A DNA stretch of 64,000 nucleotides from an uncultured Microbacterium sp. (GTDB taxonomy: Bacteria > Actinomycetota > Actinomycetes > Actinomycetales > Microbacteriaceae), in the NCBI GenBank assembly GCA_913774665.1, contig CAJYHN010000004.1:248001-312000 (forward strand). Reading direction: 5' to 3'. The position numbers were made by a program, and so were the translations under genes. The number at the start of each line of letters is the position of its first letter. The first letter of the stretch is position 1. Of this stretch, positions 4,377 to 31,044 are shown piece after piece. A model generated the notes under the pieces. The model made no database searches, was not told where the DNA came from, and worked only from the letters and a program-made list of their open reading frames with translations.

Positions 4377-5324
4377 GTGCGCGTCGAAGAAGAGATCGGC
4401 GATGCGCTGACCACGGCGCTCTCCGTATCGGACACCCCTCCCCCGCCCTCGACGCTGCTCGCGACGTTCGCCGAGGTGATCGGCGCGGATCGATGCGAGG
4501 TGCGGCTCGGCCTGAAGGCGCTCAGCTGGAGCGCGCGGGATGCCGCTCCCGACGACGACATCGGAATCCTCAGACTCGGCACGAACCCCGACATCATCGC
4601 CACCGTGACACCCGCGCGGGCGATGCCGAGCCCCGAAGCGTGGCAGCCGCTGCTCCTGCTGCTCACGCCCTACGCCGCCGAAGACGGGATGTGGCACGCG
4701 CGGCGTCAGCAGCAGGAGGCAGCGCGACGCATCGACGACGTCCGCTGGCGGGCGTCAGCCGACATGGAACACGAGCGACGGCGTCTCGAGCGAGATCTGC
4801 ACGACGGCGCGCAGCACCATCTCGTCGCCCTCCGCCTCGCGATGGCCTTCGCCGACCACCGGCAGGCCGAGGACGGCGCCGAGGAACGGCTCGCCGCTCT
4901 TCGCGATCAGCTCGATGAGACCGAGCGACTCCTCATCTCGACGGCCCGGGGCGTGCTGCCACCGGTCCTGGCACGCGGAGGCCTGAGCGGCGCCCTCGCC
5001 CCCCTCGAAGCCCCGGATCTGGAGGTGCACGCGGACATCTCGCGGCTCATGCCCGTCGTCGAATCCGCCCTCTACTTCTTCACGCTGGAGGCCGTCGGCA
5101 ACGCGCGCAGGCACGCCGCCGGGGCGCACATCGTCGTCGAGGCACGACTCGAGGGCGGGCGGGCGTTCGTGAGCGTGAGCGACGACGGGCCCGGTTTCAC
5201 CGCGAGCGGCGAGGCCGGAGGCCTGGCGTATCTCGCGCAGCGCATCGAAGCGGTCGGCGGCACCCTCGAGGTCGACTCCTCGCCCGGCGCGGGCACCCGA
5301 CTGTCAGCCAGCGTGCCCTACTGA
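4377..5324 (+). CDS. Cytosolic sensor histidine kinase, NarL/HisKA_3 type
   Basis: A 315-residue histidine kinase without membrane segments. The N-terminal ~115 residues form an unassigned input region. A HisKA_3 dimerisation helix follows, with phospho-acceptor His142 in ERDLHDGAQHH. The C-terminal HATPase has its N-box (EAVGNARRHA, Asn242), a G-box (DDGPGF) and a GLAYLAQRI motif. It should phosphorylate a NarL-type regulator; the obvious partner is the response regulator at 7078-7749, although that gene lies on the other strand beyond a degenerate kinase. It starts with GTG, and its stop codon overlaps the stop of the convergent pseudokinase gene by 7 bp. The absence of membrane helices suggests it senses an internal signal or is recruited by another protein. 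Confidence 0.85.
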   Translation: MRVEEEIGDALTTALSVSDTPPPPSTLLATFAEVIGADRCEVRLGLKALSWSARDAAPDDDIGILRLGTNPDIIATVTPARAMPSPEAWQPLLLLLTPYAAEDGMWHARRQQQEAARRIDDVRWRASADMEHERRRLERDLHDGAQHHLVALRLAMAFADHRQAEDGAEERLAALRDQLDETERLLISTARGVLPPVLARGGLSGALAPLEAPDLEVHADISRLMPVVESALYFFTLEAVGNARRHAAGAHIVVEARLEGGRAFVSVSDDGPGFTASGEAGGLAYLAQRIEAVGGTLEVDSSPGAGTRLSASVPY

Positions 5325-7081
5325 CGGCGGCCGTCGGGATCGATCAGACCCGCCGCGCTGCGCTGCAGCACCTCGGCCGCCCACCGCCCCGAACGGCCCA
5401 GACCGGGGCGGTCCGCCGCCTGCCGCCACCGTTCCGCGACGGCGAGCGCGGCTGCCCGCACCTGCTCGTCGGTCGCGTCCGCGGGCAGAGCGAGTCGTGC
5501 ACGCGCGTCGCCTCCGGCAGCGCCGGCGAGCACTGCCGCATCGGCATCGACGAGCGGATGCGCGCCGCCCCGTGCGAACTGGTCGAGGAGATCGTCCTCG
5601 ACAAGCTCGTGAGAGTGAGCGCGCAATCGATCGATCTCCCAGAGCAGGGGCTCGTCACCGACCCTCGATGCGGCCTCTGCGAGCACGCCGATCACTCTCC
5701 GCGCGACGATGACCGGCGCCCTCGCCGACAGGGTGGCGACGGCCTCGGCCGGAGAGACGCCATCACGGAAGAGCAGTCGATCGGAGGGAAGGGCGTCGAC
5801 GAACCCCGCTTGAGGGGCGAGCGCGCAGACGACGGCGTCGATCGAGCCCCACCGGCCGCGTCGGTCCCGCACATCGGCACCCAGCCGCGCGTCGGGGGCT
5901 TCGTCGCAGAGCACCGTCTGCACGCCCGGCATGGGCGCCGGCGCCGGGCCCTGAACCACCAGCAGGGTCACGGGCGCCGCCAGCGCGTCGTGGCATCGGA
6001 TGAGCTCTGCCGCGGGCAGACCCGCGGCATCCACCATTGCGGACACGCGGGCGAACACCGGGCGTGCCACGACGTCCCCGTGCGTCAGCGGCAACGACCT
6101 CACTTCGCCGCGATCCGGCATGGTCACGATGATCTCGACCTCGTCGTCATCCCGCTCCCGCACACTCAGCCCGCCGCCGAGGGAACCGATGCGCTCGATC
6201 TCCATCCGCAGAGCGCGCTCGGTCGCGTCCCGATCGCATCCGCGCGCGCGGATCGTCGCCACGGGTCCGGACGCACGGTGGAGGGCCAGCCTCAGGGGCT
6301 CGCCCGCACGCGCCAGGACCCGCAACGAGCCGGCGACCGCGTGGTAGAAACCCGACTCCACGTCCCAGCTCGTCCGGCGCCCGAGATCGCCGACGACGGT
6401 GACGTGCACCCCCGACGCCGCCGCGAGCTCGCGCAGGGTCTCTTCGACGCCGCGCGCCGGCAGCATCGCCGGGAAGACGCCTCGAACGGTGTCGCGGAGC
6501 TCATCGATGAGACGTTCCGTCAGCGCGTGGACCGCGGGCCATTCCACGGCATCCGCGGGCTGGGCGAGCAAGCGTCGCAGCTCGGCGACGTCGTGGACGG
6601 TCGCCGTGGTGATGCTCTCGACGAGCCGCATGCGCTCGCCCTCTCGGACCCGACCGGCGCGTACCTCCGCCCGCTCGGCGTCGTGCACACTCTGACGGGC
6701 GTCCTGCCGGATCCTCTCGAGCTCGCGCACGGCGCGCTCGGCACGCACCGTCGCGCCGATCCACAGGCACGATTCGCTGAGCAGCCGTCGACATCGAGCG
6801 ACGGACAGATCGGGACGAGGGACGATCTCGAGCACACCGACACCGGGCACCGGGTGCTGATCGGCGACCTCGGACTCGAAACTCGGCGCGTTCGCCGGCC
6901 AGGTGGCCAGCCGCTGCAGGTGCCCGTCCGCGAGCCTCTGGAGAAGCCGTATTCGCGGCTCCGGCGCATCGGGCGAGCCGAGTCCGCGGGCGAGGTTCTC
7001 GAGGAGCGCGGGAAGCAGCGCGTCGCGTGGCGTCCGCGCGACCACCTCGAGGACGCGCCCCGGCCCGCTCGGCGCCGTCAT
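5318..7081 (-). CDS. Degenerate histidine kinase-like protein (probable pseudokinase)
   Basis: A 587-residue soluble protein. Residues about 140-330 resemble a HisKA_3/HATPase module, but the key residues are gone. Where its neighbour has ERDLHDGAQHH, this protein reads VESITTATVHD, so no His sits at the acceptor position. The N-box asparagine is also absent (GFYHAVAGSLRVLARA). The second half (about 345-587) has no family I recognise; it is rich in Ala, Asp and Arg and has no membrane segment. The start codon overlaps the response-regulator stop (ATGA), so the two are co-translated. A role as a regulatory partner or scaffold for the active kinase and regulator is an inference. Catalytic activity is unlikely. 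Confidence 0.65.
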   Translation of the reverse strand: MTAPSGPGRVLEVVARTPRDALLPALLENLARGLGSPDAPEPRIRLLQRLADGHLQRLATWPANAPSFESEVADQHPVPGVGVLEIVPRPDLSVARCRRLLSESCLWIGATVRAERAVRELERIRQDARQSVHDAERAEVRAGRVREGERMRLVESITTATVHDVAELRRLLAQPADAVEWPAVHALTERLIDELRDTVRGVFPAMLPARGVEETLRELAAASGVHVTVVGDLGRRTSWDVESGFYHAVAGSLRVLARAGEPLRLALHRASGPVATIRARGCDRDATERALRMEIERIGSLGGGLSVRERDDDEVEIIVTMPDRGEVRSLPLTHGDVVARPVFARVSAMVDAAGLPAAELIRCHDALAAPVTLLVVQGPAPAPMPGVQTVLCDEAPDARLGADVRDRRGRWGSIDAVVCALAPQAGFVDALPSDRLLFRDGVSPAEAVATLSARAPVIVARRVIGVLAEAASRVGDEPLLWEIDRLRAHSHELVEDDLLDQFARGGAHPLVDADAAVLAGAAGGDARARLALPADATDEQVRAAALAVAERWRQAADRPGLGRSGRWAAEVLQRSAAGLIDPDGRRQ

Positions 7082-7749
7082 GGCCGCCCGCCGCCGGCTT
7101 TCTGCGCCTGGAGGTAGCTCAACACGGCGAGCACTCGGCGATGGTGCATCGTGGCGTCCTCCGGAATGCCGAGTTTCACGAAAAGCGAGGCGACATGCTT
7201 TTCGACCGCCTTGACCGAGACATACAGCTGCTTTGCAATCGACCGGTTGGCTCTCCCCTCGGCCATGAGCCGCAGAACATCCAATTCACGTCCACCCAGG
7301 CTCGCCACCGTCGTGTCGCGCTGCTCGCTGACCTCGATGAGCCGTCCTGCGAGCACCGGCTCGATGACGATCTCGCGTGCCCGAACGCGCTCCAGAGTGT
7401 CATTCAGCATCTGCACGCCGGCGATGCGCTCTTTGAGGCGATAGCCGATCGCCTCCGTGTCGATCTCGAGCATCGCCCGCAGATAATGCGACTCGGCGTA
7501 GTGCGACAACAGCAGCAGTCCGACGTCCGGGTACCGTTCACGGACGCGCTGCGCGGTGATCAGTCCCCCCTCTTCGCCGGGAGGCATGCGGATGTCGAGC
7601 ACGGCGATGTCCACCTGTTGCGAGGGGAGCGCCGCGAGGAGTTGATCGCCGCCGTCGTACGCTCCGACGACATCGTGACCCGCCGCTTCGAGCAGCATCA
7701 CGAGGCCTTCACGAAAAAGAATGCCGTCGTCGGCGATTGCCACCCGCAT
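7078..7749 (-). CDS. NarL/FixJ-family response regulator
   Basis: A 223-residue regulator with an N-terminal receiver domain and a C-terminal LuxR-type helix-turn-helix. The receiver has the acidic pair IADD, phospho-acceptor Asp52 in VLDIRMP and Lys106 in YRLKERI. The HTH is seen as GGRELDVLRLMAEGRANRSIAKQLYVS. The start at 7749 is chosen because a GGGAGGCGG ribosome site precedes it by about six bases; an upstream ATG at 7776 lacks one. It is coupled to the pseudokinase by an ATGA overlap. The divergent Hsp70 gene 165 bp away and the secretion genes beyond it are plausible targets. Confidence 0.88.
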   Translation of the reverse strand: MRVAIADDGILFREGLVMLLEAAGHDVVGAYDGGDQLLAALPSQQVDIAVLDIRMPPGEEGGLITAQRVRERYPDVGLLLLSHYAESHYLRAMLEIDTEAIGYRLKERIAGVQMLNDTLERVRAREIVIEPVLAGRLIEVSEQRDTTVASLGGRELDVLRLMAEGRANRSIAKQLYVSVKAVEKHVASLFVKLGIPEDATMHHRRVLAVLSYLQAQKAGGGRP

Positions 7750-7821
7750 CGTGACCGCCTCCCGCACCGCGGCCATCGGCCATCTCGCGCCCTTATGATA
7801 TCGCGGCCGTCGGCGACAGAG

Positions 7822-7914: not shown

Positions 7915-9852
7915 ATGCCATATTCGATCGGCGTCGACCTCGGAACAACCTCGATCGCGGTCGCCCTCGGCGACGAGCTCGGTGTGCGCGCCGCCCACCT
8001 GTCGCCGCGCGTCGTCGAACCGTCCGTCGCCTTCGTGGACGAGGACGGCCGCATCGTGACCGGCCAGGCAGCGATCGACGCCGCGCGCAACGACACCGCC
8101 CGGCTCGTGCTCGGGTTCAAGAGGAGGCTCGGTGACCCGACGCCGATCTTCGCGGGCGGCGTCGGCATGACTCCCGAAGCCCTCCTGGCCGCGCAGCTGC
8201 GCGACGTCGTCGCCGCGGTGACCGAGCAGCGCGCGGAAGCACCCCAGCGCGTGGTCGTCACCTGCCCCACCGCGTGGGGCCCGTATCGCCGGGAACAGTT
8301 CGGGCGCATCGCCGAGCTCTCCGGCGTACACGTCGACGAGATCGTCGGCGACGCCGTCGCCGCCGCGATGTTCTTCGCACGCGATCGGCGACTCGCCGAG
8401 GGCGCCATCCTCGCCGTCTTCGATCTCGGGGGCCGCAGCACCGATGCCGCGGTGCTGCGGCTCGGCGCAGACGGGCCCGAGGTGCTCGGCACCCCGGAGG
8501 GGCTCGAACACCTCGGGGGCGACGATTTCGACGACACGATCCGCGGGATCCTCGACCAGCGCCTGGGCGGCCGCATCTCGGCCCTGGACCCGGCCGACCC
8601 CGCGGACAGCGCCTCCCTCGTCGCGGTCGCCGAGGCGTGCACAGCGGCCAAAGAGATCCTGTCCGTGCGCGACGAGACGGTCGTCAGCCTCGATCTGGAC
8701 GGGTCGGAGCAGAGAGTCCCGCTGACACGGCTCGACATCGAGCACAGCATCCGCCCCATGGTCAAGACGGCCGTCGCGGCTCTGCTGCGGTCGATCTCAT
8801 CGGCGGGCGTCGAGCCCGAGGCCATCGATGTCGTGGTCCTCGCGGGCGCGTCCTCGCGACTCCCCCTCGTCGCTGAAGAGGTGTCGACGATCGGCAGGCC
8901 CGTCGCCACGACCCACCACCCCAAGTTCACCGTCGCCCTCGGCGCCGCCGAGCGGGCACGGGCGCTCGCCGAGACCGGCCGCCACACGGACCCGACGCCT
9001 CGCGTTCCGTCGCACGAGACCGGCACCGCGGCATCCCCCGTCACGACCACCGTCGCGCCGTCCGATCCCCCCGCGGACGCACGGAAGCGGGTCCGCCGGC
9101 GCACCCTGCTGCTCGCCGGCCTCGCCGTCGCCGGGATCGTCGCCGTCGTCGTGGGAGCAGCCGCTCTCTCGAGCCGGAGCGAGACCCCGGCAGCCGACAC
9201 CGCCCCGGCGAGCCCCGTGGCCAGTGCACCGCCCACCGTCGTGGCGGTGCCCGCGCCTCCGACCACCGCGGGGAAGCAGACCGCGGCCACCGCCGCGTTC
9301 CCGGTCCTCACCGAGAGCGTCCCCACCACGGGGCTCGCCTGGTACGTGCAGTCGAACGACACGGCGGGCGTGTGGGGCATCACCCCACTCGCCGCGGGAG
9401 AAGCGGCGCGACCGAACCTCACGCTGACGCAGACGACCGCGGGTTTCCGTGCCGTCTGGGCCGGAGAGGCCCCCGCCCAGTTGTACGCCCAGAGCACCGG
9501 CGACGCGATAGACCTCGACTCCATCGCGGACGGCGACGGTGCGCTCGTGTTCGACGTGACCCGCAATGGCGGTCAGGCGACGTTCTTCGAGGTCGCGGCC
9601 CACTGCGGGTACCCGTGCGGCGGGGCCGTCGACATCACGAGCACGATCAACGGTCTCGCCGCCGGGACCGCGCAGCAGGTCATCGTGCCCACCGAGTGCT
9701 TCACGGTATCGGGGCTGACCCCGGGCGCCGTCGACACCCCCTTCGTGGCCTTCGGAACCGGCACCCTCGACCTCACGCTCTCGGACGTGCGTTGGGAGGA
9801 TCGCGCGGGCAACGACCCCTCGGCGGTGCGCTGCAGCCCCGAGGGAGGGTAG
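7915..9852 (+). CDS. Membrane-anchored Hsp70-family protein with C-terminal ExoP-type galactose-binding-like domain
   Basis: A 645-residue protein in three parts. Residues 1-~350 form a DnaK/actin-like ATPase with phosphate-1 loop GVDLGTTS (Asp8), phosphate-2 loop FDLGGRSTD near 170 and adenosine motif VVLAGASSR near 308. It has no DnaK substrate-binding domain. A Pro/Thr/Arg-rich linker leads to one membrane helix (about 397-418). The outside part (about 475-640) resembles the ExoP C-terminal galactose-binding-like domain of exo-beta-glucanases, with an FEVAAHCGYPC segment (Cys564, Cys568), PTECFTV (Cys595) and a closing LTLSDVRWED strand. The ATG at 7915 has AAGAAAGGA upstream. The plausible role is transmembrane sensing or gating linked to the envelope. 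The fusion is clear; the function is inferred. Confidence 0.78.
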   Translation: MPYSIGVDLGTTSIAVALGDELGVRAAHLSPRVVEPSVAFVDEDGRIVTGQAAIDAARNDTARLVLGFKRRLGDPTPIFAGGVGMTPEALLAAQLRDVVAAVTEQRAEAPQRVVVTCPTAWGPYRREQFGRIAELSGVHVDEIVGDAVAAAMFFARDRRLAEGAILAVFDLGGRSTDAAVLRLGADGPEVLGTPEGLEHLGGDDFDDTIRGILDQRLGGRISALDPADPADSASLVAVAEACTAAKEILSVRDETVVSLDLDGSEQRVPLTRLDIEHSIRPMVKTAVAALLRSISSAGVEPEAIDVVVLAGASSRLPLVAEEVSTIGRPVATTHHPKFTVALGAAERARALAETGRHTDPTPRVPSHETGTAASPVTTTVAPSDPPADARKRVRRRTLLLAGLAVAGIVAVVVGAAALSSRSETPAADTAPASPVASAPPTVVAVPAPPTTAGKQTAATAAFPVLTESVPTTGLAWYVQSNDTAGVWGITPLAAGEAARPNLTLTQTTAGFRAVWAGEAPAQLYAQSTGDAIDLDSIADGDGALVFDVTRNGGQATFFEVAAHCGYPCGGAVDITSTINGLAAGTAQQVIVPTECFTVSGLTPGAVDTPFVAFGTGTLDLTLSDVRWEDRAGNDPSAVRCSPEGG

Positions 9853-9971: not shown

Positions 9972-10514
9972 ATGGCCATCCCCCCGGCTCCGCGAACGAG
10001 CAGTGACCCGACCGAATTCGACGCGCTCGTGACCGCACACCGGTGCGGTCTCTTGCGTTACGCCACCCGTCTGCTCGACGGCGACTCCGCCGCCGCCGAA
10101 GACGTCGTGCAAGAGACCATGTTGCGCGCCTGGCATCATCTCGACCGCCTCACCGAGCGGCAGGGATCCGTGCGCGGCTGGCTGACGCGCGTGGCCCACA
10201 ACATCGCGATGGACCACCATCGCGCCCGCCGAGCGCGTCCCACCGAGATCGCCTGGTCCGAGTTCGACGCCGAGCGGATGCCCTCCGTCCACGACCCCGC
10301 TCGCGAGGTCGAGGACCGCGTGGTCGTCACCGAGCTGCTCGCCGGTGTCTCGCCCGAGCATCGGGCCACCCTGGCCGAGGTCTATCTCGCCGACCAGACC
10401 GCGGCGGCGGCGGCGGAACGACTCGGCGTGCCCGTCGGGACCGTCAAGAGCCGCGTCTTCCACGCGCTGCGGACGATCCGCTCCCAGAGCACGGCGACGG
10501 CGCTCGCGGCCTGA
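9972..10514 (+). CDS. ECF RNA polymerase sigma factor
   Basis: A 180-residue sigma-70 family factor of the extracytoplasmic-function class. It contains region 2 (FDALVTAHRCGLLRYATRLL through the DVVQETMLRAW and GWLTRVAHNIAMDHHR helices) and region 4 (LAEVYLADQTAAAAAERLGVPVGTVKSRVFHALRTIR). It is similar in layout to SigL/SigK-type factors. No anti-sigma gene follows, which is unusual; the membrane-anchored Hsp70 immediately upstream could play that part, but there is no direct evidence. A strong GAAGGAAGGA ribosome site precedes the ATG. A perfect 14-bp hairpin closes the transcript. Confidence 0.88.
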   Translation: MAIPPAPRTSSDPTEFDALVTAHRCGLLRYATRLLDGDSAAAEDVVQETMLRAWHHLDRLTERQGSVRGWLTRVAHNIAMDHHRARRARPTEIAWSEFDAERMPSVHDPAREVEDRVVVTELLAGVSPEHRATLAEVYLADQTAAAAAERLGVPVGTVKSRVFHALRTIRSQSTATALAA

Positions 10515-10570: not shown

Positions 10571-13564
10571 TCAGGCTCCGATCGCCCCGACGGCGGGAAC
10601 GTCCTCGGGCAGTAGCAGCACCAGATCGTCCATCGTCGGCTTCTCGATCGTGCGGGTGCGACGCGCGTGATTGGCGATCGCGGCATCCATGACCTGTCGT
10701 GCATACCGGCCGTTGCCGAAGGATGCCGTGCGGTCGACCGCCGTGAAGTGCCCCCGGAGCGCGGCGACGGTGGAGCCCGTGCACTCATACCCCGAGCCCG
10801 TCGCGTGCTGGTTCACGATCGTCACCAGCTCGTCCGGGGTGTAATTCGCGAACCGCACGCGGTGCGAGAACCGGGAGTCCAGCCCCGGGTTGGTGGCGAG
10901 GAACTGGTCCATCTCGCGCTCGTAGCCCGCCGCGATGACGACCACCTCGTCGCGATGGTCCTCCATCAGCTTGACCAGGGTGTCGACGGACTCCTTGCCG
11001 AAGTCGGCGCCGTTGCCGCCCCCGGACGCGAGGGTGTAGGCCTCGTCGATGAACAGCACCCCGCCGCGCGCGCGATCGAACGCCTCCGTCGTCCGGCGCG
11101 CCGTGTGCCCCACGTACTCGCCGACGAGGTCGGCACGCGATACCTCGGTGACCTGCCCCTGGGCGAGCACGCCGAGCGCCGTCAGGAGCGAGCCGTACAG
11201 GCGCGCGACCGTCGTCTTACCGGTGCCCGGCGGACCCGCGAAGATGAGGTGCCGGCTGAGAGAGGGGGCGGGCAGCCCCGCGGCCTGGCGGCGACGAGCG
11301 GAGGTCAGCAGATCGACCATCCCCTGGACCTCCGTCTTGACGTCGTCGAGGCCGACGAGCTCGCGCAGCGTCCCGAGGAGCTGCTCGACGCGTTCCTCGT
11401 CGACGCGGCCGACGCCGGCCCCGATCGCCGATCCGGGCAGGGGGCCCAGGTCGTTCGGCACGAGACGCGTGAGGGCGAGCGCGTCCACCTCGGCGACGTT
11501 CCCCAGCCGGTAGGCCTGGCGCCCCAGCATCTCTTCGAACACCTTGCGCGCCGTACGCCCGTTGCCGAAGGTCTCGTCACGGGGGAGCTTGGTGAAGTAG
11601 TCGTGCAGGGCGGCTCGCGTCTCGAACTCGAGACTGTAATGGTTCGCGCGGCACAGCCCCTCGACGATCGTCACCATCTCGGCCGACGAATAGTCGGCGA
11701 ACTCGACGGTCCGCGAGAAGCGCGACGACAGCCCCGGGTTCGTCGCCATGAACGTCCGCATGTCGTTGGTGTATCCCGCGACGATCACCACGACGTCGTC
11801 GCGGTGGTCCTCCATCAGCTTGACGAGAGTGTCGATCGCCTCCCCGCCGAAGTCGTTGCTCGAACCGCTGTCCTTCGACAGCGCGTAGGCCTCGTCGATG
11901 AAGAGCACGCCGCCGAGGGCTTTCCCGAACATCTCGGCCGTCTTGATCGCGGTGCCGCCGATGACCGCCGCGACGAGGTCGGGGCGCGCGACCTCGACGA
12001 GCTGGCCCGTCCTCAACACACCCAGCGCGGCGAGGATGCGACCGTAGAGGCGCGCGACCGTCGTCTTGCCCGTGCCCGGGGCGCCGGCGAAGACGAGGTG
12101 CCGCGAGACCGGGGGCGAGGGCAGACCCGCCTCGGCACGACGCTCGGCCATCTGGTGCATCCGAACGAGCGTCTCGACCTGCCGTTTGACGCTGTCGAGT
12201 CCTACGAGCTGATCCAGCTCCGCGAGCAGGCGGTCGAGCTCGCTCGCGTCGTCGGCGTCCTGCCCGACGGTCGACTCATCGAGCGCTCGCCGCTCCCGCG
12301 GGACCGCGCCGGACGGGGGTGGGGCGTCCTCGCCGTCCGGCGCTTCCTCGATCTCGACGTCGGCGTCGGGGTCGACGTGCACACTGTCTTCGGACACGTC
12401 CCGCACCCTCGTGCGCCGCAGGGCTCCCGTCGACGACCCGTGCCACGCGGCCCCCTGGCGGCCGCCCCGCACCGAGCCGCCGTCGAGGACGAGACGGGCG
12501 AAGTCCCTCGCCACCGCGCCCGCGGCCTCCGCCTCGATGATCCGCACATCCGTCAGCGCCGCCGTCGCCTCGTCCGAGACCGTCACGCCGGAACCGGCGG
12601 GACGCCGGATCGTCGAGTCGACGAGCGTGACCGACGCGGAGTCCGCGACGACGACGGCGTCGTGCCCGGCCCCGTGCAGCTCGCATCCGTCCGCGGTCAC
12701 CCGTGCCCGCTCCACGAGGTGCAGCGCGTGTGTGGCCCCGTCATGGATTCCGACGCGCGACAGCCGGATCACCGCGTCGGCCATACCGACGACGCCCTGT
12801 CCACGCGGGTGGTGGACGGTGGTGTCGGTGAGGGTCGCGGACCCGTCGGAGGTGACGAACACGCCGATGCCGCCGGCATCCGCGACGGTCGTCCCGGTGG
12901 CATCCAGGCTCGCCCCGCCCTCGACGGTGATCGCCGCTCCGGTGACGTCCTCGATGCGACCGCGGGCGATCGTCATCTGTCCGCCGTCCGCGACGAGCAG
13001 ACCGCCCTGCGCCGAGGAGACGACGGTGTCTACGACGTACGCCGAGCTCGGGCCCCGCACCACCAGCGCCGTCGTCGCGATCTCGGCGAGTCTGCTGCCG
13101 GTGAGCTCGGCGCGGCCGCCCTCGAACACGAGCACACCGGCGCCGAGGGTGTTCGAGACGCGGGTGTCACGCATCGACAGGTGTGCGTCGGTCCGCACCA
13201 CCAGCGCCACCTCCGTCGACGCCTCGACCGTGCAGTCGTCCAGCGAGAGCGTGCCGGAAGCCACGTCGACGGCCACGTCGCCGTCGGTCCGTGCCAAGGT
13301 CAGGCCCGACATCCTCGCCTCCGCCGTGCTGAGCACCGCGGGGCCCTCCACCGCCTCGATGCGCACGTCTCCGGCATTGCCCACCCCCGAGAGAGAGACG
13401 GCACGGTCGAGCAGGAGCGACTCGCGGTAGAGACCGGGGCGGATCGATATGACGTCTCCGTCCTCCGCCGACGCGAGCGCCGACGCGATGGAGGGATGGC
13501 AGTCGGGAGCGCCTGCGGCGACCGTCAGCACGGTGCGCTCTCGCGCGGTCAATCGAGTGGCCAT
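10571..13564 (-). CDS. EccA-like double AAA+ ATPase with N-terminal parallel beta-helix
   Basis: A 997-residue protein. Residues about 20-400 are a run of short imperfect repeats (V-x-G/D turns with T/S-rich strands) typical of a right-handed parallel beta-helix, as in pectate-lyase-like folds. A charged linker leads to two CbxX/CfqX-type AAA+ modules. Each has a Walker A (GAPGTGKTT with Lys500; GPPGTGKTT with Lys783), a Walker B (LFIDEAYAL; LFIDEAYTL) and an NPGL/SRF arginine-finger region. Module 2 keeps the usual pore loop GEYVGHTA, while module 1 reads AAVIGGTA. EccA proteins assist type VII export and normally have a TPR N-terminus, not a beta-helix. It is the last gene of the minus-strand secretion train. 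Confidence 0.8.
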   Translation of the reverse strand: MATRLTARERTVLTVAAGAPDCHPSIASALASAEDGDVISIRPGLYRESLLLDRAVSLSGVGNAGDVRIEAVEGPAVLSTAEARMSGLTLARTDGDVAVDVASGTLSLDDCTVEASTEVALVVRTDAHLSMRDTRVSNTLGAGVLVFEGGRAELTGSRLAEIATTALVVRGPSSAYVVDTVVSSAQGGLLVADGGQMTIARGRIEDVTGAAITVEGGASLDATGTTVADAGGIGVFVTSDGSATLTDTTVHHPRGQGVVGMADAVIRLSRVGIHDGATHALHLVERARVTADGCELHGAGHDAVVVADSASVTLVDSTIRRPAGSGVTVSDEATAALTDVRIIEAEAAGAVARDFARLVLDGGSVRGGRQGAAWHGSSTGALRRTRVRDVSEDSVHVDPDADVEIEEAPDGEDAPPPSGAVPRERRALDESTVGQDADDASELDRLLAELDQLVGLDSVKRQVETLVRMHQMAERRAEAGLPSPPVSRHLVFAGAPGTGKTTVARLYGRILAALGVLRTGQLVEVARPDLVAAVIGGTAIKTAEMFGKALGGVLFIDEAYALSKDSGSSNDFGGEAIDTLVKLMEDHRDDVVVIVAGYTNDMRTFMATNPGLSSRFSRTVEFADYSSAEMVTIVEGLCRANHYSLEFETRAALHDYFTKLPRDETFGNGRTARKVFEEMLGRQAYRLGNVAEVDALALTRLVPNDLGPLPGSAIGAGVGRVDEERVEQLLGTLRELVGLDDVKTEVQGMVDLLTSARRRQAAGLPAPSLSRHLIFAGPPGTGKTTVARLYGSLLTALGVLAQGQVTEVSRADLVGEYVGHTARRTTEAFDRARGGVLFIDEAYTLASGGGNGADFGKESVDTLVKLMEDHRDEVVVIAAGYEREMDQFLATNPGLDSRFSHRVRFANYTPDELVTIVNQHATGSGYECTGSTVAALRGHFTAVDRTASFGNGRYARQVMDAAIANHARRTRTIEKPTMDDLVLLLPEDVPAVGAIGA

Positions 13565-14040
13565 GACGTGCCCTCCCAGGCGTCGGGGCGGATCGCCGCG
13601 GAAAGGCGCCGCCAGGTCTTCGCGTCGACAGGATGAGCCGGGCGCGCGGTTCGCAGGTGCCGCACGAGTTCCGCGTCGGGCGCGATCCAGTACCGCTCGA
13701 GGAAGAAGGCGCAGGCATCGCTCCAGATCCAGACGCCATCCGAGCGGAGGGAGGCGGGCACGGTCGCATCATGACCACCCACGTGGTCGCGCAGCTTCTT
13801 CGCCGCGTGCAAGATGACCGCGCCCGACCGCAGGAGTCGCAGAACGTCCTCGCGCTCGCGCGGATCGACGATGACGGCGTGCTCGGGGGCGAACCACGGG
13901 TCGCCGTCGCGCTGACCGTCGAAGACCCGCGCCACCCTCGTCCGCGGCGTCGGTCGCAGACGTCGCGCGACCCGGCCGATGAGGCCGCTCGCGAACCCGC
14001 GGGCCGCTGCGGCGTCTGCGTCCGAGGTGTGCTCGTCCAT
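13549..14040 (-). CDS. Hypothetical 163-residue protein between ART-like and AAA+ genes
   Basis: I do not recognise this protein. It has a basic N-terminal stretch (GLIGRVARRLRPTPRTRVARVFDG), then an acidic middle and a C-terminal segment with SDGVWIWSDACAFFLERYWI. That motif (W-x-W, then aromatic-rich helix) recalls small proteins placed next to toxin-like genes in actinobacteria. Three starts are possible (14055 GTG, 14046, 14040). GTGAGGGGG lies at the right distance only for the ATG at 14040. The 3' end overlaps the start of the AAA+ gene by 16 bp, and the frame begins just after the ART-like gene. An adaptor or immunity role is a guess from position. Confidence 0.6.
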   Translation of the reverse strand: MDEHTSDADAAAARGFASGLIGRVARRLRPTPRTRVARVFDGQRDGDPWFAPEHAVIVDPREREDVLRLLRSGAVILHAAKKLRDHVGGHDATVPASLRSDGVWIWSDACAFFLERYWIAPDAELVRHLRTARPAHPVDAKTWRRLSAAIRPDAWEGTSWPLD

Positions 14041-14051
14041 CGTCATCCCCC

Positions 14052-16829
14052 TCACGCCGCCGAGGGCAGGTCGCCGAACCAGCGGTCGTCCGTGTGCGCC
14101 CGGAGCTCGCCGCGGGCTTCCGACGCCGCCTGCAGTCGGCCCAGCGCCTGCTGTGCTCCGGCGCCCTCCTCGGCGAGGAGCAGGCGCGCGCCGCGTCCCG
14201 CCTCGAGCACGCGCACGCGAAGACCGGCGGGCAGCGCGATGTCCGCTGCCCCCGTCACCCCGTGCAGGACGCGGTCGAGCCGACGGCCGCTCGTCGTCCA
14301 GATCAGGGCTTCGGCCGGACCCGTCGCCGGGCCGTCCGCGGCGGCGGCGATCAGCGGCATCCGCAGCCGGAGGACGTCGCCCGGCGCGGCGTCGACGGCA
14401 GAGGGGATGCCGCGCACGACGACCGCCCGCGCGGTGGGAAGCATCGCCAATCCCTCGGCGAGGCAGACGTGGAAGTCGAGGTCGTAATCGGCGTGGGGGT
14501 CCGCGGCGAACACCCGGACGAGCGACAAACCGGTCAACATCGCGGAACGGTCCCCGGCCGACGCGCGCATGCCCGGCTGCTGCGCGAGCAGCTGCGACAC
14601 GGTGCGGCTGGCGACGTCGTACCGCGGACCGAGCGCGGTCCGCACGCGATGCCGCTGCTCGGCGGTCGAGCGGACGTCGACGGGCACCTCTTCGAGGCGA
14701 CGACGCGTCGTCGGGGCGGACGCTGCCGGAGCTCGCTCCGGCTCGCGGGATGGCAGAGGGGATGCCGGCCCCGGCGCCTCGACCGTCGCGCTCCCCCGCG
14801 CGGCGGCGGCGTCGGCCGCGGGGGCAGCCGGCCGGTCCCGCGCGGCGGTCGTCGCGAGTGCGGGCGCGGCGGTCGTCACGGGCTCGGGCATGGACGCTCG
14901 AGGCGACGTCGCCGGGGCCACCCGCTCAGCGGGGTCACGAGGGGCGGTCGGTCGCCCGTCGCCGGGATCGGACGCGGACACCGGCCGAGCGGCAGCACCC
15001 GGGGCGGGTGTCTCCGCGGACCCCCGCAGGGCGCGTGCGAGGCCCGTGGGCGGGGCGGCGGGAAAGTCGGCGGCCTTCGGAACGGCGGTGATCACGGGAG
15101 GAGTGGCGTCCGGCGACGTGGCGATGCCCGACGCGGCCGTCGGTCCCGTGGCGCGTCCGGAAGTCGCGAGCGTCGCAGCGGGCGCGTGCTCCGCGGGGGG
15201 CGCGGCCACAGCGGGAGGAGCGGACCTCGCGACGGGCGCGTGCTCCGCGGGGGCCGAGGGCTGCGCGACGGGCGTGGTTGGAGCAGACGTCACCTCGGCG
15301 CGCCGGCCACGGGCCGAGGCCGGCGCCGCCCCGACCCGACGGACGGATCCGCTCTCGCGCTGCGGTCGGGTCTCGCTCGCGCCACCCACGACGGGATCGA
15401 CCGTCAGGGGGCCCATCGGCGCCGGCCGCGGGATGGCCGTAGAGGCGACGGACTGCGCGGGGGCCCCGGTCCGCTCCGAGGCCTGCTTCACGTGTCCCGA
15501 TTCGGCCGAGGATGAGACAGGGTCTGCGTCGACGACGGCACCGGTTCCACCGGTCGTGGGCGTGTCACCGCTGGCATCCATCGTCGCCGCCACGAGCTGA
15601 CCGTCCGCGGTGAGTGCGACCGCCTCGACCGGCGCCCACCGCCCGGGGTAAGCGTCGCGCACGACGCGTCTCGCGGTGGCGTCGAGCGGATGGATCGTCA
15701 CGGTGCCGAGGCGCTCGAGACGCGCGAGCAGGGGGGCGAGCAGACGCGGGAGGCTGTTCGGCCGCCGCGCGCCGTCGCACTGCAGGGAGAGCTGGAGGCT
15801 GTCGCCGATCGGGGCGGCGGCACCGGCCGCGACGGGCCGCACCCCCGCGGGAGCCACGATCAGCCCCGCGGGGACGATGTGCACCCGCCATTCCTCGCTC
15901 GCCCGGCGGTTCGCTCTCGAACTGTCGTCGATGCGGTAGCCCCCGGAAGCAGCGGGCACGAGACCGGCCGGGGTCTCCCATCGATCGAGACGGACGGAGC
16001 CGTCGGGGGCGCAGACGCTCTCGATCGCGAGTGTCGGTGGCGTCGTCGCCTCACCGTCGAGGCGGACCGAGGCCCCACCGATCTCGACGCCGTGCGCAAC
16101 GCGGAGCGGTTGCTTCAGCGCTGCGGCGAGGTCGCGGACCGTGGCCACATCGAGGCTGCGCGGACCATAGCCCACGAGCGCGGCCACCGACAGCGCTTCC
16201 GGGGGCAATGCCCGCAGCACCGTCTCGAGGCGCTCTCGGCTCGGCGGCGGTTCGGCGGGGCTGCCCACGACCACGAGAAGCTGCTCCTCGCGAACGGCGA
16301 CGCCCGCCAGGCGGACGGCGTGTTGCGCTTCGGCTCCCGCCGTCACCCAGAGTCCGGCGGGGATGTGCGCGATCCCGGGCAGGTTCGCAGGGAGGTGGTG
16401 CTGCCACGCCGGGGCCGGGTACCGCCGTCCGGAGGGGACGCGCGCTCCCTGCGGGCTGCGCGTGACCCAGCCGTCGCCCTTGCCGACCGAGAAGAGCGTT
16501 CCGGAGCAGGGCAGAAAGCGCCCGTCCGGCGCGACGACGGGCACCCCGAGCACGCGCGCGAGCCGAGCACCGTCGGCCTCCGCCCCGTCCTCGCCCTCCC
16601 CTCCGAGTCCCTCCGAAGGGACGACGACGGTTCCATCGAGATGAGGTCGTACCGCCTCGACGACTTCTGGCGCGGCCTCCCGCAGCGACTGCTGCAACGC
16701 GGGCGTGGCCACCAGGTACCGCGCGGCCTTCAGCGGTGGCAGCCCGTCCAGGAGGGAGCCGGTCCGCAGGTCGCCCTGCGCGGCGACGATGATCCCGAAA
16801 CCCGTTCGTTCCACGGTGATCGACGACAC
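14052..16829 (-). CDS. Large protein with C-terminal ADP-ribosyltransferase-like domain
   Basis: About 925 residues in three zones. The first ~410 form a folded, beta-rich region with no family I can name. A Pro/Ala/Thr-rich linker (about 420-750) follows. The C-terminal ~150 residues begin QRHRVRTALGPRYDVASRTV and contain an RG pair (VVVRGIPS), a strand EALIWTTSGRRL and PAGLRVRVLE. Such an Arg / W-S/T-S / strand-Glu layout recalls ADP-ribosyltransferase folds, but the catalytic E-x-E is not evident, so the domain may be inactive or binding-only. The GTG at 16829 is favoured by AGGGAAGGGG just upstream; 16847 and 16856 are alternatives. It follows the giant effector gene on the same strand, 51 bp after its stop. 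Confidence 0.55.
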   Translation of the reverse strand: MSSITVERTGFGIIVAAQGDLRTGSLLDGLPPLKAARYLVATPALQQSLREAAPEVVEAVRPHLDGTVVVPSEGLGGEGEDGAEADGARLARVLGVPVVAPDGRFLPCSGTLFSVGKGDGWVTRSPQGARVPSGRRYPAPAWQHHLPANLPGIAHIPAGLWVTAGAEAQHAVRLAGVAVREEQLLVVVGSPAEPPPSRERLETVLRALPPEALSVAALVGYGPRSLDVATVRDLAAALKQPLRVAHGVEIGGASVRLDGEATTPPTLAIESVCAPDGSVRLDRWETPAGLVPAASGGYRIDDSSRANRRASEEWRVHIVPAGLIVAPAGVRPVAAGAAAPIGDSLQLSLQCDGARRPNSLPRLLAPLLARLERLGTVTIHPLDATARRVVRDAYPGRWAPVEAVALTADGQLVAATMDASGDTPTTGGTGAVVDADPVSSSAESGHVKQASERTGAPAQSVASTAIPRPAPMGPLTVDPVVGGASETRPQRESGSVRRVGAAPASARGRRAEVTSAPTTPVAQPSAPAEHAPVARSAPPAVAAPPAEHAPAATLATSGRATGPTAASGIATSPDATPPVITAVPKAADFPAAPPTGLARALRGSAETPAPGAAARPVSASDPGDGRPTAPRDPAERVAPATSPRASMPEPVTTAAPALATTAARDRPAAPAADAAAARGSATVEAPGPASPLPSREPERAPAASAPTTRRRLEEVPVDVRSTAEQRHRVRTALGPRYDVASRTVSQLLAQQPGMRASAGDRSAMLTGLSLVRVFAADPHADYDLDFHVCLAEGLAMLPTARAVVVRGIPSAVDAAPGDVLRLRMPLIAAAADGPATGPAEALIWTTSGRRLDRVLHGVTGAADIALPAGLRVRVLEAGRGARLLLAEEGAGAQQALGRLQAASEARGELRAHTDDRWFGDLPSAA

Positions 16830-16871
16830 GGCATCCCCTTCCCTCATCTCGTCCACGGATGAGAGCGCGTC

Positions 16872-16888
16872 CGCGGTTCATTACCGCG
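16872..16888. other. Hairpin at the giant effector stop codon
   Basis: Six-base perfect arms (cgcggt at 16872-16877, accgcg at 16883-16888) enclose a 5-base loop and overlap the TAA of the giant gene. With no T-tract, it may tune read-through or mRNA decay between the effector and the downstream ART-like gene rather than end transcription. Confidence 0.35.
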
Positions 16889-19800
16889 CGGGTGACGCGT
16901 CCGATGCGCTCAGACCCGCCAGAGCGTCGTCGAAGAACGCCTGGGCGTCGAAGACCGACCCGTCGCCGGTGATGCTGCCGTCGGGGAGCAGAACGCCGTC
17001 GATCTCGTGCTCGTCCTCGTCTTCGGGCACGTATCCGGACGTCGGCGCGTGCGGGATCCATGTCGTCGCGGGAGCCGCACCCGGTGGGGAGGAGAGGACG
17101 TCGGATACCGGAGGTCCGGCATCCGGGATGCCGGTGGTCGGCGAGGACGGGCGCGAGGGCGCCGGTGCCTCCTGCGGCGGGATCGCGGCCGGCGGCCGGG
17201 GCGGCGCAGGACGGGCGGGCGGCTCGTCGTCCTCGGGCTCCGGAGCCGTGACGTACTCGTCGTCCGAGTCGATCTCCGGCGCCGTGACGTATTCCGCCTC
17301 CGAGTCGTCGGACGGGAGGGACTCCGTCGCGGCGACGGGCGACGGCGGGGGCGGCGAGCCGAACGGCGGCGGGGCCGGGTCGACGCCGTCGTCGCCGGGG
17401 GCCGGCGCGGGTGCGTCGTCGCCGTCGCGCGCACCTCGGTCGTTCGCGTCGTCCCCCTCGCGGTCGTCTTCACGCTCGTCGTCGGGTTCGTACCCGTCGT
17501 CGGCGTCCTGGTCGTCGCGCTCGCCCGCGCGGTCGTTCTGCTCGGCGTCGCGCGTGGGCTGCTCGGCCTCGCGCCGCCGCTGCTCCTCGTGCGCGCTTAC
17601 CTCCGCAGCCCGACGCTCCGTCTCCTCCGCTGCCAGTCGCTCCGCCTCACGACGCTCCGCCTCCACCGCAGCCGCGCGCTCCGCCTCGCGACGCTCAGCC
17701 TCACGACGCTCCGCCGCCACGCGCTCCGCCTCACGACGCTCCGCCGCCACGCGCTCCGCCTCCACCGCAGCCGCGCGCTCCGCCTCACGACGCTCCGCCT
17801 CGCGACGCTCCGCCGCCTCCGCAGCCAGTCGCTCCGCCTCACGACGCTCCGCCTCCACCGCAGCCGCGCGCTCCGCCTCACGACGCTCAGCCGCCACACG
17901 CTCCGCCTCACGACGCTCCGCCTCACGGCGCTCAGCCTCACGGCGCTCAGCCTCACGACGCTCCGCCGCCACACGCTCCGCCTCGCGACGCTCCGCGTCC
18001 GCAGCCAGGCGCCGCGCCCGGTCGCGCGCGGCGCGCGCCTCGGCTTCCCGTCCCGCGGCGTCGTCCGCCGCACGGGCGGCCTCCGCGGCCCGGGTGGCAT
18101 CGCCCTCCGTGTCGGGGGGCACCTCGAGACCGAGAGCGCTCAGCTGCTGCTCCCACACCTGCAACACCACCGGGACGTCGATCTCCTCGGACTGCGGCTG
18201 GCCTTGGCTGTTCCTGATGGTCGAGGTCTGAGCGCTCACCGAGAGACGCAGGTAGGCGTCCACGATGAACGATCGTCCCGTGTGTTTCACGCTCTCGGAT
18301 GTCTTGACGTCCGCACTCTGCTCGTCTGTCCGGCTCGAGGACACCTTGAACGACGGACTCAACCCGGCGAAGACGAATCCCGGTTCGGTCGGTCCGAACA
18401 TCCCGAACTGCAGCGTCTCGCCCGTCTCGTCAGCCTTCTTCCCCGCGCGGGACGTGCCCGTGTCGAGGTCGACGGAATGCTTCAACGTCGTCTCCGGTGC
18501 GGTCGTGTCCGGGCGCAGCGACGGCGCGACCAGACCACCCGAGACCGACAGACGCGAGCGGACGTCGCGGAAAGCTGCACGACGCGCGACCAGATCGTGA
18601 TTGCCGACGGTCTCGCCCGCGACGATCCGGGGCAGTGCGTTGAAGAGGGTGCCGGTCGACGTCGACACCCACAGCTGCTCGTCGTAGACGTCCCCCGGTC
18701 GGGCGGCGCCGCGCGAACCGAGCTGAGACAGCACCGCCTGGCGGACGGCGTCCACGCTCGCGCTGTCCCAGCGCACGGCTCTCCAGGCTCCCCTCGCGGG
18801 CAGCTGGTAAACCGTCGCGCCCGGCGCGGGCGGTGCCGAGATGACGGACTCCGGTGAGTTCTCCGGCTCGAGGATCTCGACCGTCCCGTCGAGCGCGAAC
18901 CCCGGCAGGCTCTGGTGGGTTCCGTATGCGGCGCCCCTCGAGAGCATGGCGTCGATCGCGCCGCTCACGTGCTCATGGAGGTCCACATCGACCGAGAAGG
19001 TGACGGGGATGTGACTCTGCTCCAACGCCTCATGCTCGGCGGTGACCGTCACCGTGGGAGACAGGGGCTGCGATGCGCTCTTGTCCCATCGCCGGTTGAA
19101 AAGCGTCACATCGTGCTGGGGAGTGATCTCCGCACCGGGGAGGTTCTTCTCGCCGTCCGCGCGGGTATTGAAGCCGAGCCTGCCGTCGGCTCCGGCGTCG
19201 ACGGCGTGGAAACTGCTGCGCTTCCCGGTGACGCCGTACGAATGGCCCGTCGTGAGCTTCTCGCCCGTCAGGGTCGTGCGCGTCTCGGGGTCGGTCGCAT
19301 CCGGGCGGTGGGTGACGGCGACCCGGATGGTCGCGCTGCGGTGGGAGAACGATCCCGACGGCAGCGCGATCGTCACACGATTCGGCCCCACGATGGCGCC
19401 ACGCACGAAGGTGTTGCCCGCGGCGTCGGTGAGCAGGCGACGCACCTCGGCCACGATTACCGCGCGATCAGGGTCGGACAGGCCGTTCGGACGCCAATTG
19501 GCATCCATGTTCGCGAGATCCGGCGCCGAGACCGAGCTCTCTCCGACGACGGCGTCCGAGTCGTCGCGATACGGAGCGAGCGGATCGATGGTCCCGGCTG
19601 TCGGCGGGACGGCCGCGTCCATCGGAGCAGGGCCCGCGGCGGGCGGATCCTGAGGCCGCACGGGACCCATCTCGTAACCGTCCGGTCCGTCGCCGGGCGG
19701 ATCGGTTGCCGCAGTGCTCGGTCCCGCCGGTGCGGGCGCGATCGCCGGGGCCGGCGGAGGGACGGAGGGCCCCGGCTGGGGCAGGTCCGGCCCCGGCGCG

Positions 19801-22800
19801 GCATCCGCATCCGCATCCGCATCCGCATCCGCGGCCGGATCGTAGGCGGCCAGCTCCGGCGGGAGGGCGATGCCGTGCGCGAGCATCAGCTTCGCGGCCT
19901 CGCGAGCCGGCAGCTCGATGTCCACGGCACCCGGTTCATGGCGCGTGAAAGACGGATTTTCGAATCCGCTCCTCCACCGCCAGCGGCGCAGCTCCAGAGT
20001 CGGCGTGTAGGTGCGCTCGGCGTCGAAGCGGAGGACGACGGTCTCCCCCTTCAGACTGCGCTCGGATGAGGAGCCCGTCGCCAGGCTCGTATCGCTGGAT
20101 TGTCCATAGGTGTACCCCGCCTTCGCCCCGGCCTGCACGACGAACCTGTCCTTCGACCCCGGCACGAGGGCGCGCAGCATTCCGTCCGCCCCGACGCCGG
20201 CGTTCCACTCGCGCGTCGTGCCGAGGCCACGATCCTCCGCGGAGCCGCGCACCAGCGTCCTGTCCTGCCGGGTCGTGACGTACACGGGATTACCCAGACG
20301 CTGCTGCACTTGGAGGGAACCGTGCAGGTCTCCCAGCGTGCCGGTCAGCGTCATGTCGCCGGTCGACACCGGGCGACCGCTCAGTCCGGCGTTCGCGATC
20401 ATCCGAAGCCCCGTCTCGGAACCGAGTGCCGTCACAGACGAGGCCGTCACCTCGCCCGGACGGGTGAGGGGCGAACGCGAAAGGGTGAACCGACCGGACT
20501 CGCCGACGAAGGACTGCTCGCCCCAGCTCGAGAAGTTGCCGCTGCCTCGGACGGGGCGATGCGGCGCTCCGGCGCCGCGGACGAGGTGACTCTTCTTCGA
20601 CAGCGACGCTTCGAGCAGCCCCGCGTGCGCCTCGTGCCCGCGCACGCGTTCGACCTTGGCGAAGGGGCCGAGCGCCGATCCCTCGACCGGTCGGAAGTCT
20701 CTCGTACCCGTTGTTCCCACGAAGGTTCGTCCGCGTCCGGCAGTCGGTGCACCCACCTCGACCTGCGGACGGCGCACGACGATCCCTCGCACGCGCAGAG
20801 CCCGTCCGGCGTCCGGAGTCTGCGTGCGATGACGCGTGCTCGCGGGACCGCTGCCGAGCAGCCTTCCGCCCGCCAGCGCACGCTGGAAGAAGTTCGGATC
20901 CTTGGTCGACTCGTGCACCACCCGGAGGGTCGTCTCGCTGGGGTGGTACGCAGCAGGGACATCGCTCGAGGCCGCGCGAGTCTCTTTCAGAGCGTGGGAT
21001 GCCGAACTCTTGACCGATTGCTGATAGCCGGCCGACACCTGAGCGGAGAGCCTGCCCCAGTCCGGGCCGAGGGCCGTCGTGGCCGGGGATTCGAACGCGG
21101 CCACCCCCAGAACGCCGATGGCGAGGCGCTGACCGCGTTTGGAATCGACGGTCATCTCGTTCTTGGTCGCGTGCGACTCTTCGCGCTTGAACGCGGCGGG
21201 GTCGGTCGCGCCGGGCGCGTCGCCGAGGCGGATGTCGGCGGTGATGGTCAGGCGGTGGGTACGACCGCCCTCCCGCCAGGTCACGGTCGCGCCTCCGGTG
21301 GTCGCGTCGTGCAGCCCCTCCTTGACGGAATCACCGTCGAATCGGCGCGCAACGGCTCCCTTGCCCGTCCCGGACAGGCCGAGACCGCGCGCGATCTGGT
21401 CGGAGAGATCGGACGGCACGGACACGAAAGAGTCCCGGGACGGATCGAAGGCGGCGTCCTCGCCGGGCGTCACGTCGGGCAGATCGCGATCCGCGTTCGC
21501 GACGGCGTCCGGCAGCGAGAGACGACGCTGCTGCGCATCGGCGATCGGCACCGAGAAGGTCGTGTGCACCTGCACCGGTCGAGAAGCCCCGCGCCCCGAC
21601 GAAATGTGCACCGTACGCGAGAGGGCGTACACGGCCAGCGTGCCGTCGTCGCTGCGGGAGGCGGAGTGCTTGCGTTCGCCCGACGCGCCGTGCGATCCGC
21701 TCAACGTCGCGGTCAGGCCGCCGCCGGTGCGCAGGAAGCTGCGCACTCCGCCGCGCGCTCCGAGGGTCGCACTGAGATCGTTTCCGCGCGAGAACCCCGA
21801 CGACAGAGCGGTGTTCTTCGCCGTCTTGCTCGTGCCCGCGGACACACCGAGGAAGGTGGTCCGAGGGGCCGTGGCATCCACGGAGAAGGTCAGGGTGTCA
21901 CCCGTGCCCTTCGCCGCGCCGGGAGCGGTGAGAATGCTGGTCAGCTCGTCGACGTCGCGCTGCGACCTAGGGCGCAGAGGCCCGACGGCGAGATCTGTGA
22001 CGCGGCGGGGACGGATGCCACGCAGGTCCGCGCCGCGCGGGCGCCCGATCTGACCCTGGGGGTGGTCGGGCAGACTCATCTCGGGCGTCGTCAGGGTCAT
22101 GTCGACGCGGATGTTCGTGGTCCGTGAGCCGGTCGTGAAGGCGAGCGACACCGTGGCGTGCGCGGGCGACGAGGCCGCCTTCGGGGTGGCGGAATCGCTG
22201 TGCGTGGTCTTGGCACCGAGGTCGGAACCCGCAGTGGACCCCGCACCGAACGTCACGGCCGGGTACCCCGGTCCGAACCCCGCGGCGAGCGTCAGCTGCG
22301 CTCCGATCTGACGCGAGGAGCTTTGCGACTGCTTCGCAGCGACCTCTGTGTTCTGCGTCAGAGAGAAGACGTCCTCGGCCGTCGGTTGCGCCGTCTCCGT
22401 CGTCGCGGTCGCCGGGGCCGGATCGCCCGCCGACGACTTCGGCGCGGTCGGGGTGATGGCCGGCAACCGCACACCGGTCCGCCGCACCTCGGTCGTCGTG
22501 CCGTCCACGGTGAGGGACCCGGACTCGATCACCCCGCGCCACGCCGCCGCCACCTCGGCCGCCGTCGACTGATCGGTCAAGCCGAGCGCCCGCGAGACGC
22601 GCTGTTGTCCGACGCCCAAGTGGCCCGCGACGTCGGCGAGCCCGTCCCCGGGGCGGACGATGGTCGAGACCGGCAGCGGTTGCCCCTGGACGAGGGCGTT
22701 CGCCGGGAAGGTCGCATCCGGCAGCCGGTGCTCGGCATCGGCGAGTCGCTCGATCGCCCAGAGATGACGCGGGTAGACCATCGCGCCGTCGCGGTGGACG

Positions 22801-30711: not shown

Positions 30712-31044
30712 TCAGGCCTCGGCCTGCAGGGTGCTCAGGTCGTCGGTCTCCTCGAAGAGCTGCTCCGCCTTGTCCAGCTGGTCGCGGAACTCGGGGAGGG
30801 TCTTCTCCGTGAAGGTCTCGGTGAACGAACGCACCCGCCCGGCGAGTGCCGAGACGTGGGTGCCGACCTGTGCGGCGACCTCCCATCTGGCCTCGACGGG
30901 CTGCGCACGAAGATCCGAGCTGATGGAATAGCCGTCCGCGCCGTAGAGCGCGTCATCGGTGGTGGTCTCGACGTCGAGAACGAGCGCCTTCACCTGCTTG
31001 TACTGTTCGCGATCGAAGGCGACGCGGGTGCCGTTGTCTGCCAC
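30712..31044 (-). CDS. WXG100-like small helical protein
   Basis: A 110-residue acidic helical protein starting at GTG 31044 with GAGAGGAG upstream. It has a helix (REQYKQVKALVLDVETTTDDALYG), a loop containing Ser/Arg/Gln, then a long C-terminal helix (ARWEVAAQVGTHVSALAGRVRSF to EQLFEETDD). Size, helix content and position between a WXG pair and the EspB-like gene support an ESX-type protein. A canonical W-x-G is missing. Confidence 0.6.
   Translation of the reverse strand: MADNGTRVAFDREQYKQVKALVLDVETTTDDALYGADGYSISSDLRAQPVEARWEVAAQVGTHVSALAGRVRSFTETFTEKTLPEFRDQLDKAEQLFEETDDLSTLQAEA

Follow-up and report, generated by a model that had tools for sequence, protein, structure and literature searches.

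Proteins of the Hsp70 family are known as chaperones, and in Hsp70, DnaK and HscA alike a nucleotide-binding core with phosphate and adenosine motifs is accompanied by a substrate-binding domain. Among membrane regulators, RsgI proteins carry outside binding modules. The RsgI anti-sigma factors of SigI systems are described as transmembrane, polysaccharide-sensing regulators (PMC12203970), and SCO4117 (ECF52) as an ECF factor that has a Pro-rich region and a carbohydrate-binding domain in the periplasm (PMC8999054). In ExoP, an exo-1,3/1,4-beta-glucanase, the Exop_C domain forms the end of a GH3 enzyme. A domain 3 of ExoP is missing from related enzymes (PMC6987092). Type VII (ESX) loci, for their part, have EccB, EccC, EccD, EccE, mycosin and WXG100 proteins. 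Other associations of WXG100 proteins are the subject of PMC11090510.

The gene described here combines elements of these systems in another way. It lies at 7915-9852 on the plus strand of the window, by which we mean the whole analysed stretch of 64,000 nucleotides, and its 645-aa product consists of three parts, namely an Hsp70 core, a single membrane helix and an Exop_C domain (Table 1). The core of such fusions has, like that of Hsp70, DnaK and HscA, a conserved Lys and the presumed motifs for phosphate and adenosine, but a membrane helix stands in place of the substrate-binding domain of those proteins. The outer end shares with the C-domain of ExoP the Pfam family Exop_C and four aligned cysteines, whereas in the fusion it terminates a membrane Hsp70 and no enzyme domain is present. 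RsgI and SCO4117 are the closest in layout; however, the inside part is an anti-sigma domain in the former and the sigma factor itself in the latter, and an Hsp70 core in the fusion. The surrounding island likewise has the EccB, EccC, EccD and WXG100-type proteins of ESX loci, together with a mycosin-like frame that scores below the model cut-off, but unlike these loci it also encodes the membrane Hsp70, a two-component system and a protein in which a beta-helix is joined to two AAA modules. The fusion is a real and conserved architecture which recurs with the same neighbours and co-occurs with one type of EccC, and it is undescribed as far as our literature search reaches: neither the fusion nor an Hsp70 in such islands was found described in the titles and abstract openings among the matches listed, most subscription journals lying outside the search.

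Regarding the protein itself, the first-pass annotation had claimed an Hsp70 ATPase core without the DnaK substrate domain, one membrane helix and an ExoP_C-type domain on the outside; these points hold, and the motifs which it quoted are all present in the translation. PF00012 (HSP70) matches with E=4.1e-35 (121.5 bits against a Pfam cut-off of 20.6), and as for membership of the DnaK family, the actin-like nucleotide-binding domain with its phosphate and adenosine motifs is present by PF00012 and across 26 aligned fusions. The NCBIfam models of DnaK and HscA cover residues 4-357 and nothing beyond; hence the C-terminal substrate-binding domain, for which these two models gave no match, is missing. 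The longest open reading frame, of 941 aa from 7027, was considered as the gene start and discarded because the alignment of the relatives begins at the position of 7915. Hydropathy peaks in a 19-residue stretch from residue 398 with a mean of 2.65, and since six K/R occur in the 15 residues before the helix and one in the 15 after it, the N-terminus is predicted inside and the C-terminus outside. K/R residues are more numerous before the helix than after it in 45/45 fusions, and in all of them the Hsp70 part is predicted to be cytosolic and Exop_C extracytoplasmic. Positions 8, 10, 69, 170, 172 and 173 are invariant in the 26 aligned fusions, and E146, T175 and D177 are kept in at least 90 percent of them; D8, G10, K69, E146, D170, G172, G173, T175 and D177 are what we take to be the phosphate-loop and catalytic-lysine positions of DnaK. 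Judged from these residues the ATPase core of the fusions looks usable. The window's own copy deviates by D for E146 and S for T175, both conservative, and by Ala for P147, so that its ATPase may be slower or altered.

The outside domain is identified by PF18559 (Exop_C), which aligns residues 510-627 with profile positions 39-155 of 155 at E=2.5e-23, its 83 bits lying well above the curated threshold of 26.1; this score, like that of HSP70, is beyond chance. A profile search had been suggested in the first-pass annotation, and the profile built from the 26 fusions does recover the solved C-domain chains of ExoP, 3f95, 3usz and 3rrx, with a best E of 5e-4. The first-pass annotation had also named a C-terminal fold other than a galactose-binding-like sandwich as counter-evidence; the Pfam match of the segment gives no sign of this, and in view of the profile match to the solved domain such a sandwich is the candidate fold. 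Folding the C-domain from its single sequence gave a poor model (pLDDT 39.6); an in-frame query with the C-terminal part of the 645-aa protein returned as its sole match an irrelevant designed repeat protein. Four cysteines of the fusions align with cysteines of 3f95, 3usz and 3rrx, which fits a domain located outside the membrane. The last 185 residues hold exactly four Cys in 45/45 fusions, the first two always four apart, and two possible disulfides are predicted to stabilise the domain. Moreover, 34 Exop_C positions are common, at a level of at least 80 percent, to the 26 fusions and 43 GH3-type copies, including W487, W515, Q522, Y524, Q526, H563 and the four Cys. Binding of a sugar or glucan by this domain may be expected by analogy with the places where Exop_C otherwise occurs and with two loci that lie next to GH64 genes. 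In these loci (L135 at 6102-8573 and L137 at 12158-14789) solitary fusion genes stand right behind genes of GH64 beta-1,3-glucanases; they belong to two genomes of one genus and are the sole hint at the ligand.

To what extent the architecture is distributed can be seen from genome surveys. Exop_C matches were found in 15 of 394 genomes of the class, 88 of 249 genomes of family f58 and 6 of 398 genomes of the window's own family f1, and in one of 14 control genomes. Every Exop_C place of at most 132.4 bits was examined, the window's copy excluded (n=49), and places above 132.4 bits were taken as GH3-type, a label that rests for the 43 copies on long frames and, in 35/43, a GH3-like motif. The Hsp70-helix-Exop_C architecture is present in 44 of the 49 places, which together with the window's protein makes 45 fusions from two actinobacterial families; in L062 the N-terminus is cut off by the contig start. 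The five places not counted are L061 (GH3-like by eye), L144 (with a GH3-like end), L136 (match limited to the C-terminal part), L145 (a 186-aa frame in which the Hsp70 motif is absent) and L146 (a 532-aa frame with no Hsp70 motif seen, apparently antisense). That the gene might be an isolated assembly artefact, with Hsp70 relatives that always lack the outside domain, had been considered in the first-pass annotation and is countered by these 44 other genes, which also rule out a chance fusion; a lone oddity of the window is ruled out by five relatives of the same family with the full set of neighbours. Of 296 genomes searched phylum-wide with a C-domain profile, two gave a match; one is that of the window and the other, G215, has a GH3-like frame, so that this sample yielded no fusion beyond the two families. 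Scanning genome contigs with the full protein gave seven loci without a fusion, most of which look DnaK-like by eye. Among 234 plasmid records none covers 80 percent of the query, and the matches listed there are to the Hsp70 core only.

Around the gene extends an island for type VII secretion of about 36 kb, from about 4377 to 40026, and neither this island nor its two-component system appeared in the first-pass annotation. The island contains EccB, EccC, EccD, a mycosin-like protein, WXG100 proteins, an EccA-like ATPase, a response regulator of the LuxR type and two genes for kinase-like proteins (Table 1).

Table 1. Parts of the fusion protein and genes of the island, in coordinates of the window
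Feature	Position	Strand	Basis
Hsp70-type nucleotide-binding domain, residues 1-352	7915..8970	+	PF00012, NCBIfam models, alignment of 26 fusions
Single transmembrane helix, residues 398-416, preceded by K/R-rich residues	9106..9162	+	Hydropathy, charge count
Ala/Pro/Thr-rich linker, predicted extracytoplasmic, residues 417-473	9163..9333	+	Translation; variable across alignment
Exop_C-type domain, residues 474-645, invariant Cys 564, 568, 595, 640	9334..9849	+	PF18559, PDB profile match, invariant columns
Sensor histidine kinase	4377..5324	+	HisKA_3, HATPase_c
Degenerate histidine-kinase-like protein with C-terminal extension	5318..7081	-	No Pfam match over cut-off
LuxR-type response regulator, divergent from Hsp70 gene	7078..7776	-	Response_reg, GerE
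ECF sigma factor, about 120 bp downstream, same direction	9972..10514	+	Sigma70_r2 3.4e-17, Sigma70_r4
Right-handed beta-helix and two SpoVK/EccA-type AAA modules	10571..13564	-	Over SpoVK and EccA cut-offs
Conserved 168-aa island protein	13549..14055	-	No family match over cut-off
Conserved 934-aa island protein	14052..16856	-	No family match
3310-aa protein, N-terminal WXG100_2	16881..26813	-	PF25547 E=3e-16, over cut-off
WXG100-like small protein	26865..27191	-	PF06013 E=1.7e-4, below cut-off
YbaB/EbfC-like protein	27172..27573	-	PF02575 E=3e-8
Gly-rich 1033-aa protein, possible substrate	27570..30671	-	No family match
110-aa protein	30712..31044	-	No family match
EccB	31791..33065	-	TIGR03919 266.8 bits, cut-off 154
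EccD	33121..34602	-	TIGR03920 164.8 bits, cut-off 94.95
EccC (EccCa and EccCb)	34724..38773	+	TIGR03924 936 bits, TIGR03925 825 bits, over cut-off
Mycosin-like subtilase frame	38422..40026	+	TIGR03921 212.5 bits at 38950-39939, below cut-off 278.75

As to the assignment to type VII secretion, EccB, EccC, EccD and WXG100_2 score over their cut-offs and the small WXG100 protein below, and the EccE search gave a match neither in the island nor in the controls. The mycosin-like gene probably starts close to the stop codon of EccC or beyond it; its HGT motif, presumably that of the catalytic His in mycosin, reads RGT by eye, and it may be an inactive mycosin. The 3310-aa protein has a long low-complexity middle and a HELLH motif, and from its sequence it is likely a large secreted type VII substrate and possibly a toxin. 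The degenerate kinase-like product matches the family of the neighbouring kinase with an hhalign probability of 96 percent and misses the LHDG phospho-acceptor motif, and the N-terminal beta-helix joined to a double AAA is an unusual fusion itself. Among 33 congeners no EccC match is more than 46 percent identical to that of the island, full-length ones reaching at most 44 percent, and the same genome holds a second type VII EccC (contig C10, 325393-329376) which is 43 percent identical to the island's, a level resembling that of the EccC of several congeners; the absence of a close EccC in congeners together with the second, different EccC indicates that the island is accessory.

The neighbourhood of the fusion gene was counted over 39 fusion loci with flanks, for seven families of neighbouring genes in the stretches retrieved. 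A regulator of the LuxR type lies near the fusion in 26/39, always upstream and divergent, a degenerate kinase-like gene in 26/39 and a sensor kinase in 23/39, while the EccA-like protein, the 168-aa protein and the 934-aa protein are near in 17/39 each. The full set stands in the same order in 5/5 relatives of family f1. In ten of the 39 loci all seven families are missing from the stretch, and an eleventh shows a kinase-like match alone; hence the protein is able to occur without the module. A further observation in family f58 is that a small protein of about 190 aa, which resembles the sensor kinase in its phospho-acceptor region, lies between the regulator and the Hsp70 gene in ten loci (L103, L112, L113, L123 and L125-L130).

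These counts bear on the sigma factor, to which the first-pass annotation had specifically coupled the protein. It had pointed to an ECF sigma gene directly behind the fusion gene and to the absence of a classical anti-sigma, and both statements stand: the gene is where it was said to be, and no anti-sigma family matched among the scanned neighbouring genes. One might suppose a direct switch in which the Hsp70 core, while in one nucleotide state, keeps the sigma factor bound and releases it once sugar reaches the outside domain. The codirectional arrangement agrees with such a switch, being found downstream in 15/39 loci with all five same-family relatives among them; however, a sigma gene is near in just 22/39, of which six have it downstream on the opposite strand and one upstream at a distance, against 26/39 for the always divergent LuxR regulator, and no anti-sigma domain was matched in the 645-aa fusion by Pfam or NCBIfam up to E=1. 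Coupling to sigma specifically is therefore where the first-pass reading does not carry over to the wider set of loci, and we regard a direct sigma switch as improbable, though it may apply to one branch only.

The link with secretion can be quantified through EccC. Island-type EccC, defined as full-length and sharing 58 percent identity or more with the EccC of the island, occurs in 23 of 35 genomes with a fusion and in none of 35 control genomes of family f58 without a fusion, among the matches listed (Fisher p=9e-10, every genome being taken as independent); within f58 alone the figures are 18/30 and 0/35 (p=1.7e-8). On account of the kinship of the genomes both p-values overstate independence. 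The controls were hand-picked from the f58 survey, 18 free of Exop_C matches and 17 whose copies are all GH3-type; their best full-length EccC has 51 percent identity, and partial matches occur in G484 (58 percent over 425 residues) and G504 (60 percent over 289 residues). Twelve of the 35 fusion genomes are without a full-length island-type EccC among the matches listed, G510 having pieces, and the island-type copy of G635 contains one internal stop. As raw distance counts on the same contig, taken from 29 matches judged best or nearest, 14 of 43 fusions lie within 45 kb of an EccC gene and six more within 70 kb, among the matches listed; 17 of these 20 EccC genes are island-type and three are 49-50 percent identical. 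Two of the 43 lie farther away, and 21 have no EccC on their contig among the matches listed, some assemblies being fragmented.

Such proximity would suit a protein that is an accessory part of the type VII apparatus, with the outside domain anchoring the apparatus to a wall glycan and the Hsp70 core acting as an ATP-driven clamp or chaperone with the EccA-like ATPase. EccB has its N-terminus inside, one helix and a large outer domain, and the predicted topology of the fusion matches this; the EccA-like ATPase is, in addition, near together with the 168-aa and the 934-aa protein in 16/39 loci. However, the fusion gene is divergent from the response regulator and stands on the regulatory side of the island, the ten module-less copies speak against a structural role even though one of them (L119) matches the start of the WXG100_2 protein, and the queried type VII proteins found no match in the stretches around 22 Hsp70 relatives without Exop_C. 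We consider the accessory role unlikely, and a receptor is favoured over a structural part because the protein is also found without secretion genes nearby.

The relatives without Exop_C are informative on origin as well. Membrane Hsp70s whose tail is P/T/S-rich and lacks Exop_C are present in the genus and in the order, the nearest relatives of the fusion having been found in the order; they share with it the core and one helix, which is seen in 14/16 of them (mean hydropathy above 1.7), and differ in the tail and in the lack of matches to the queried type VII proteins in their stretches, two of which (L025 and L029) gave a weak response-regulator match. In a tree computed without L062 and L136, 16 of these relatives form one group beside the fusions (support 96/100, branch 0.85), and the split separating the f1 fusions has a support of just 60/85. 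This grouping fits a single fusion event, with weak rooting, as the rooting is unreliable and the DnaK rows are on a long branch. The same relatives, together with the copies found away from the module, could suggest that the fusion is a general protein of envelope stress or wall assembly, carried by the island as a passenger, whose Hsp70 core chaperones membrane or wall proteins. Against it stand the missing substrate-binding domain and the strong co-occurrence with one EccC type, and this is to us the least probable of the readings. The island is distributed patchily over two actinobacterial families, and we infer that it spread between them by horizontal transfer.

With regard to function, the reading that we tentatively prefer, at somewhat less than an even chance, is that of a transmembrane Hsp70-type switch which senses extracellular beta-glucan and reports to the regulators of the island. 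The anatomy fits a receptor, with Exop_C outside, one helix and a nucleotide-binding core inside, and the predicted topology fits a carbohydrate-sensing transmembrane regulator. The fusion protein would then be the receptor of a regulatory module made up of the sensor kinase, the degenerate kinase, the LuxR regulator and often the ECF sigma factor. Its outside Exop_C domain, on a flexible linker, would recognise beta-glucan of a competitor, of a host or of the own envelope; we infer that binding would shift the ATP/ADP state of the Hsp70 core, that a cytosolic partner would read this state, most likely one among the response regulator and the kinases, joined at some loci by the sigma factor, and that the partner would then set the expression of the secretion island. 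Whether the fusions amount to a new receptor class, in which a non-chaperone Hsp70 core is the switch of a glucan sensor controlling or gating a horizontally spread type VII island, is a possible but doubtful proposition. If true, an Hsp70 would act as an ATPase that signals or gates across the membrane, and an extracellular sugar polymer would be a candidate trigger for a type VII island with a very large WXG100_2 protein.

As to regulatory elements in the DNA, the promoter and terminator scan was empty, and three pattern searches gave no promoter motif common to the island operons. Two short conserved stretches were seen in the loci of the window's own family: a motif at 7855-7869, upstream of the Hsp70 gene, is kept in five of six loci, and a 36-base stretch at 9903-9938, upstream of the sigma gene, is kept in all six and occurs a single time in the window.
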